A stretch of 64,000 nt of DNA from positions 744,001 through 808,000 of the forward strand of contig NZ_CAKASL010000001.1 of NCBI RefSeq assembly GCF_916858655.1. The letters run 5' to 3'. Both the position numbers and the translations under genes were made by a program. The DNA comes from Aeromicrobium sp. Leaf350 (GTDB lineage Bacteria; Actinomycetota; Actinomycetes; Propionibacteriales; Nocardioidaceae). The stretch's first letter is position 1; each line of letters opens with the position of its first letter. Shown here piece after piece: positions 6,874 through 8,132 of this stretch. The notes under the pieces are model-generated. The model searched no databases, had not been told where the DNA came from, and saw only the letters and a list, made by a program, of their open reading frames with translations.

Positions 6874-7182
6874 TCAGCTCGGGCTCGAGAAGATGTCGAT
6901 GCTCTGACCGGCAGCGACGCTGACGATCGCCCGCTTGGTGTCCTTGCGCTTGCCGACACCGTTGCGGGTGCGGCGCGTCTTGCCCTTGCGGTTGAGCGTG
7001 TTCACCGCGGTGACCTTGACGTCGAAGATGCGCTCGACGGCGATCTTGATCTCCGTCTTGTTGGCGTCAGGGTGCACCACGAAGGTGTACTTGTTGTCGT
7101 CGATGAGGTTGTACGACTTCTCACTGACGACCGGGGACAGCACGACGTCGCGCGGGTCCTTGTCGATGGTGGTCATGGTCAC
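6874..7182 (-). CDS. rplW: 50S ribosomal protein L23 (uL23)
   Basis: Exit-tunnel rim protein and main contact for trigger factor and SRP. About 100 residues; core motifs [20 protein letters not shown] and [20 protein letters not shown] are clear. Two starts are possible: GTG at 7180-7182, whose GTGA overlaps the rplD stop, or ATG two codons later at 7174-7176. I used the GTG because overlap coupling is the rule in this operon. Confidence 0.95.
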
Positions 7183-8132
7183 TCACCAGCCTTCGTGAAT
7201 CCCGCGGCCTGGGCGGACTCCTCGGAGTCGAACCACACCTCGGCGATGGTCGAGTCGTACCACTGGCCCTCGGGCAGGTGGTACTTCTGGGAATCGGCGT
7301 TGCCCTTGATGTCGAAGCCCTTGGGAGCGTTGCCGCTCTTGAGGGGGGCCTTCGAACCCGGGCCGTACGGCTGCGTCTTGGTGACGCCGTCGTCGCTCGC
7401 CTCGACGGCCGCGGCCGGAGCGGCCTTGGCCGTGGCCTTCTTCGCGGGCGCCTTCTTCGCAGCCGGCGCAGCCGTCGCGGCGGGCGCCTCGACAGCGGCC
7501 TCGCTCAGCTTGACCGTCTCGACACCCTCGGCCGAACGGGCGGCCACGAACGCGTCGAAGGCGTCCTTGGTGAAGATCACGTCGTCGCTCTTGATGACGT
7601 CGTAGGTGTTGAGCTGGTCGAACGTCAGGATCACGAGACCCGAGTGGTTGCGCAGGCTCTTGACCGTCAGGTGGTCCTCGCGGTCGACGACCAGCAGGAC
7701 GCGGGGACGCGTCGAGATGGCGGCGAGAGCGGCGACAGCCGTCTTGGTCGAGGGGGCGTCACCCGTGACGAGCGCGTCCACGACGTGCAGGCGACCCGAG
7801 CGGGCCCGGTCCGAGAGGGCACCGCGCAGGGCGGCGGCCTTCATCTTCTTGGGCGTGCGCTGGTCGTAGCTGCGCGGCGTGGGGCCGTGCACGACGCCAC
7901 CACCGGCGTACTGGGGTGCGCGGATCGAGCCCTGACGAGCCCGGCCGGTGCCCTTCTGGCGGTACGGCTTGCGGCCACCGCCGGCGACCTCGCCGCGCGA
8001 CTTGGTGTCGTGGGTGCCCTGGCGCGCCGCGGCGAGCTGGGCGACGACGACCTGGTGGATCAACGGGATGTTGACCTGGGCGCCGAAGATGTCGACCGGC
8101 AGGTCGACGTCGATGGTCTTGGTGTCAGCCAT
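7179..8132 (-). CDS. rplD: 50S ribosomal protein L4 (uL4) with extra C-terminal domain
   Basis: Exit-tunnel protein; in proteobacteria also the S10-operon autoregulator. Residues 1-205 are a normal L4: globular domain plus the tunnel loop with [19 protein letters not shown] and [19 protein letters not shown]. The protein then continues to 317 residues, whereas L4 is usually 200-230. Residues 214-255 form an Ala/Lys/Pro linker ([20 protein letters not shown]) and residues 256-317 a compact module with [30 protein letters not shown] and a final AAGFTKAGE. Composition and codon use match the rest, so this is not a frameshift artefact. The module resembles what I remember as the actinobacterial sunset domain known from L17 variants; the name is from memory. 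Confidence 0.95.

Follow-up and report, generated by a model that had tools for sequence, protein, structure and literature searches.

The gene rplD of Aeromicrobium sp. Leaf350 encodes a 50S ribosomal protein L4 of 317 aa that ends in an additional C-terminal domain, the sunset module. It lies at 7179–8132 on the minus strand (ATG start), in a minus-strand ribosomal protein operon of the window, that is, the whole stretch of 64,000 nucleotides that we analyzed. The module is real and conserved, is predicted to fold, and occurs on many carriers and at either protein end; its L4 form is present in the sequence of a solved ribosome. We propose that the L4 tail could be a docking module for a putative cytosolic partner, displayed off the ribosome by a flexible linker, a proposal whose chances we judge to be evenly balanced. 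Binding of a common partner is the reading that we consider most likely; it would alter where or how ribosomes work.

According to this model, a flexible linker would keep a folded, cysteine-free and acidic module at a distance from the ribosome surface. One cytosolic partner would recognize the module on both ribosomal subunits, NusA, complex I subunits and envelope-linked membrane proteins, and would thus be brought to these large complexes or hold them together. Such a partner, if found, would reveal a new way in which actinobacteria organize translation.

Layout and constraint of the L4 tail

Pfam Ribosomal_L4 (PF00573) matched residues 9–195 of the protein with 215.9 bits (gathering score 25.8), and we chose residue 205, beyond the end of this match, as the boundary of the ordinary L4 core (residues 1–205, 7518–8132, minus strand like all parts of the gene). 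An Ala/Lys/Pro-rich linker of low complexity (residues 206–251, 7380–7517) leads to the cytosolic sunset module (residues 252–317, 7182–7379), whose core at residues 275–316 (7185–7310) was matched by the NCBIfam sunset model NF051437. The score was 74.3 bits in the protein search (curated cut-off 27, E 5.6e-21), which excludes chance, and 78.5 bits in the genome search. The full-length protein matched NF051449, "50S ribosomal protein L4, sunset domain variant", with 465.6 bits (cut-off 385, profile positions 1–285); the L4-sunset form is a member of this already catalogued family. These matches bear out an earlier note on this DNA (the original prediction), which had claimed an extra C-terminal domain on L4 and had suggested the name sunset domain; the three motifs it quoted are all found in the L4 translation. 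It had placed the module at residues 256–317, correct in position and slightly short in extent, the limits of about 252–317 being set here from AlphaFold2 and conservation.

The tail had also been put forward for structure prediction, and AlphaFold2 folded the L4 module confidently (pLDDT 92.8, pTM 0.80). The module is small, acidic and cysteine-free, and model and sequence together give the tail the predicted look of a tethered surface module, as had been suggested. We compared 20 genes of the genus that encode L4 with sunset; judged by coordinates, three pairs of them appear to be one genome under two names. For these genes, dN/dS was 0.39 in the core, 0.80 in the linker (206–252) and 0.26 in the module (253–317); these are simple pairwise counts without a codon-bias model, and the ratios serve as a ranking only. 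The module is more constrained than the L4 core itself, and the linker is loose, with 51% mean identity over residues 206–252 among the 20 L4s. In an alignment of 22 varied cytosolic modules (62–66 aa), identity per column averaged 60% and 11 positions were invariant. The invariant polar residues K25, N27, S30, H34 and T44 (alignment numbering) are shared by unrelated carriers, which suggests the binding of something common. The source genome (3.5 Mb, 3 contigs) has a single L4 match, and the module would therefore be expected on every ribosome, unless the tail is removed.

To follow the L4 form among relatives, we used samples of 42 genomes of the genus, 39 of them with an L4 match, and 159 genomes of the family. 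L4 carries the sunset module in 30 of the 39 congeners; the extension is thus no sequencing artefact, an error that the original prediction had considered. In the family, the L4 model matched in 142 of the 159 genomes and reached the sunset part in 54 of these (53 directly, one as two pieces). The claim that the module is not a standard part of L4 is consequently right only in part, given these counts for genus and family and the NCBIfam model devoted to this form. L4s that end near residue 210, another concern raised, are found in a minority of congeners only. The patchy spread in the family would suit a neutral hitch-hiker, a functionless C-terminal extension spread by recombination. Purifying selection that is stronger on the module than on the L4 core, together with polar residues kept over unrelated carriers, argues against it and makes this explanation extremely improbable.

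Among the congener L4s that lack the module, five (303–333 aa; among loci L270–L274 and L276) end in long PAKKA-type repeats, one of 266 aa (L274) has a shorter Lys-rich tail, and two end short, at 216 and 225 aa.

Carriers of the module

We found the module on L4, L17, L22, L20, S2, S16, S17, NusA, NuoJ, NuoC and membrane proteins. The L17 (NF051448), L20 (NF051450), S2 (NF051451) and ArfC (NF051433) forms are already catalogued in NCBIfam, as is the domain (NF051437). The fusions to L22, S16, S17 (N-terminal), NusA, NuoJ and NuoC are outside the catalogue, no fusion model for them being present among the NCBIfam matches of these proteins. As for the identity of the carriers, the NusA, L22, S16, NuoJ, S17 and plain L20 models were passed; the NuoC models and the L20-sunset model matched below their cut-offs.

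A scan of named genomes gave at least 562 relatives. The best 80 of these, that is, the most query-like, were classified as L17 (33), L4 (32), L22 (7), S2 (4), S16 (2), NusA (1) and S17 (1), and come from Microbacterium, Rothia, Nocardioides, Knoellia, Kribbella, Nakamurella and Acidimicrobiales, among others. The top eight among the matches listed are from Aeromicrobium, the source genome's own record being possibly excluded. In the family sample, sunset was over the cut-off in 83 of 159 genomes and on ribosomal carriers in 67. Counted by genome, and with classes assigned partly by eye from matches over the cut-off, these carriers are L4 (54), L17 (13), S2 (12) and S16 (1); the others are single-span membrane proteins (17), NuoJ (3) and secreted or cysteine-type proteins (21). 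In two family genomes, a piece cut by a contig end was left without a carrier class.

Two proteins of the source genome exceed the sunset cut-off: L4 and a secreted nuclease-like protein of 518 aa (L003, 1492–3048, minus strand) which, by eye, has a signal-peptide-like start, a nuclease-like body and a C-terminal sunset module with a cysteine pair. A third match of 14.6 bits, below the cut-off of 27 and overlapping another gene, was dropped as chance. The original prediction had pointed to similar modules on L17 and on secreted nucleases, and both exist, the latter in the source genome as well. Its idea that the domain decorates other ribosomal proteins is wrong for the source genome, where L4 is the only one, and right for relatives, which have up to three kinds per genome. 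Two or three kinds of ribosomal protein carry the module in 9 of the 67 ribosomal-carrier genomes, which rules out mutual exclusion of the carriers (one module per ribosome). One single-contig genome (G113) combines NusA, L4 and L22 forms, and genome G097 has both an L20 form and a divergent NuoC form.

The same module on so many unlike carriers suggests a shared binding partner. Linker lengths vary from a median of 33 aa on L17 to 98 on L22, with one L20 at 101, and either subunit and either protein end are used. No single ribosome site would thus be needed, and display would outweigh exact position. That one domain decorates seven ribosomal proteins, NusA and complex I suggests that its function requires only display on big cytosolic machines.

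Self-association is the main rival to docking on a partner. Sunset modules would then bind each other, clustering ribosomes or sunset-bearing NusA, complex I and membrane proteins. Consistent with such a sticker, the same module is found on ribosomal, transcription, respiratory and membrane carriers, several carriers coexist in some genomes, and natural tandems of two or three modules exist. However, AlphaFold2 of one such tandem (L17 of genome G335) gave a pTM of 0.46, a linker pLDDT of about 43 and no sign of a docked pair, which is weak evidence given a 6-row alignment and no inter-domain error, and L4 is the sole ribosomal carrier in 45 of the 67 ribosomal-carrier genomes of the family. 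We regard self-association as rather unlikely. The use of both subunits and either protein end would also be expected if abundant carriers simply provided many ligand-sequestering sites, the ribosome being incidental; few proteins of the cell are as abundant as those of the ribosome. Against such a concentration device, some membrane carriers are encoded near envelope genes, and the ArfC-like ones are presumably not abundant, so that we find it distinctly unlikely. In a broader form of the docking proposal, sunset would serve the actinobacterial cytosol as a general address tag, borne by ribosomes, complex I, RNA polymerase with NusA and membrane proteins linked to the cell wall, with one cytosolic receptor gathering transcription-translation-membrane assemblies and the tagged subunit varying by lineage. 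This extension is speculative and, to our mind, fairly unlikely.

The only N-terminal fusion seen is that of S17 (L232, 1983–2618, plus strand), from one metagenome-assembled genome. On the same contig, the gene before rpsC, which is truncated at the contig end and probably encodes L22, has a sunset module at its own end. A match on a Tsukamurella "plasmid" sits in the rpoA-rplQ operon among other ribosomal genes, and this piece is probably chromosomal.

Module classes and membrane carriers

None of the 134 distinct ribosomal/NusA modules contains a cysteine, 3 of the 48 other non-cysteine modules contain one, and all 58 cysteine-class modules contain at least two, of which only the second is informative because one cysteine near the start defines the class. 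Over about 65 aa, the mean net charge is −6.1 for the ribosomal/NusA modules, −3.0 for the other non-cysteine modules and +0.4 for the cysteine class. These compositions would fit an extracellular form with a disulphide and, in the reducing cytosol, a form that lacks cysteine. They also bear on a nucleic-acid-binding module, like the Ada zinc domain, that would act on RNA or DNA near the ribosome. RNA binding is disfavored because the ribosomal/NusA modules are acidic, in contrast to the cysteine class; moreover, the Ada-type cysteines are missing and the Ada N-terminal zinc domain (PDB 1U8B), the nearest solved fold, is a weak match. Nucleic-acid binding is thus very unlikely.

On a FastTree tree of 243 modules, the cysteine-class boundary required 4 changes, versus about 52 in shuffles. 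For the 134 ribosomal/NusA modules it required 26 carrier changes (minimum 7, shuffled mean 64); built on about 65 columns, the tree is weak evidence. We also compared 41 pairs of modules that share a genome and differ in carrier. In 37 of these pairs, each module resembles its best counterpart on the same carrier elsewhere more closely than it resembles the other member of the pair. Frequent copying between carriers within a genome is therefore not supported in these pairs, and each fusion appears to be kept over time. The exceptions are three pairs in G335 and one in G113, a tie within rounding.

Sunset is uncommon across the phylum: at E 0.001 it was matched in 32 of the 326 genomes sampled, and in 28 of these the score exceeded the cut-off. 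The class of the source genome gave 47 of 296 genomes at 1e-12, and at 1e-8 the class of G113 gave 31 of 148, where most of the carriers are short, have a single span and contain a cysteine pair. Of the 14 control genomes from outside the phylum, one, that of Bacillus subtilis, was over the cut-off. The membrane carriers (spans assigned by eye) include ArfC-like proteins, one-span LGFP-repeat proteins and other single-span proteins that are coiled-coil or rich in helices; for NuoJ and ArfC, the topology in the membrane is taken from general background or from the sequence. We fetched 14 membrane-carrier regions and scanned a nearby upstream gene in six, leaving out five others. An OmpA domain was over its gathering score in five of the six, with a small intervening gene between the OmpA and sunset genes in one case (L298), and the sixth neighbor had sub-threshold BON matches only. 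In three regions from the class of G113, no OmpA-type neighbor was seen by eye.

In three Nocardioidaceae genomes (L296, L297 and L298), the membrane sunset gene stands just before rimO- and pgsA-like genes, with Pfam support for the L297 rimO only. In genomes of family f96 (L306 and L313), the carrier is a helix-rich protein that appears to span the membrane once.

Several results weigh against docking on a common partner. L4 is without sunset in 9 of the 39 congeners; inspection of eight of these nine showed six Lys-rich tails and two short ends, and these Lys-rich tails suggest that the L4 C-terminus is a hot spot at which tails are added. A ribosomal carrier was not detected in 92 of the 159 family genomes, some of them incomplete, which suggests that cells can do without the function or replace it. 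A membrane carrier or NuoJ was detected in only 12 of the 67 ribosomal-carrier genomes and not in the source genome, so that bridging of ribosome and membrane by two sunset modules cannot be a general mechanism. Finally, conservation is evidence of function, not of binding, and a binding partner of the module was not found.

Viral contigs gave 14 pattern matches, one of which encodes a sunset relative, a possible tail protein of 381 aa with a C-terminal module (L244, 2026–3171, plus strand) located after a collagen-like gene. A further relative is gp605 of Bacillus phage G. The 381-aa protein and the L4 tail of the source genome both match phrog_28030. These viral relatives are too few to judge whether sunset is of viral origin.

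Comparison with known systems

Nothing on the function of the sunset domain was found in a limited search of open-licence papers. Nor did these papers yield a description of the same module across ribosomal proteins, NusA, complex I and membrane proteins, the NusA and complex I fusions not being sought by name. NF051449 describes L4, linker and sunset domain as in the source L4, without essential difference, and its name gives the domain no function.

The best match of the module among solved structures, though weak, is the Ada zinc domain (PF02805, 1U8B). At the sequence level, PF02805 did not match the L4 tail of the source at E <= 1. Intermediates exist in the form of two zinc-type modules that match PF02805, one of which is also over the sunset cut-off. 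Zinc-type modules presumably bind zinc, and the source L4 module has no cysteine at the positions where they have theirs.

A search of PDB sequences returned a single relative (E 8e-22, six entries: 8CRX, 8CVM, 9C4G, 9PJ7–9PJ9). This is the L4 of the Cutibacterium acnes 70S ribosome, whose 301-aa sequence matches the module profile at 241–290. The published description gives C. acnes uL4 an extension at the C-terminus that is exposed to solvent, exceeds that of E. coli by 100 aa and is without density, its authors holding it to be "likely disordered" (PMC10085706, NAR 2023). Missing density might also be expected if the tail were a folding, assembly or turnover tag, removed from the mature ribosome or without a role on it. 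A flexible tether explains it equally well, and the linker varies freely (dN/dS 0.80; a processing site was not searched for), so that such a tag is very doubtful. Docking through a tethered module is consistent with the same observation. The source L4 offers an alternative reading of a tail described as likely disordered: a module predicted to be folded, on a flexible linker, would leave the same missing density in C. acnes ribosomes if the tail is intact there.
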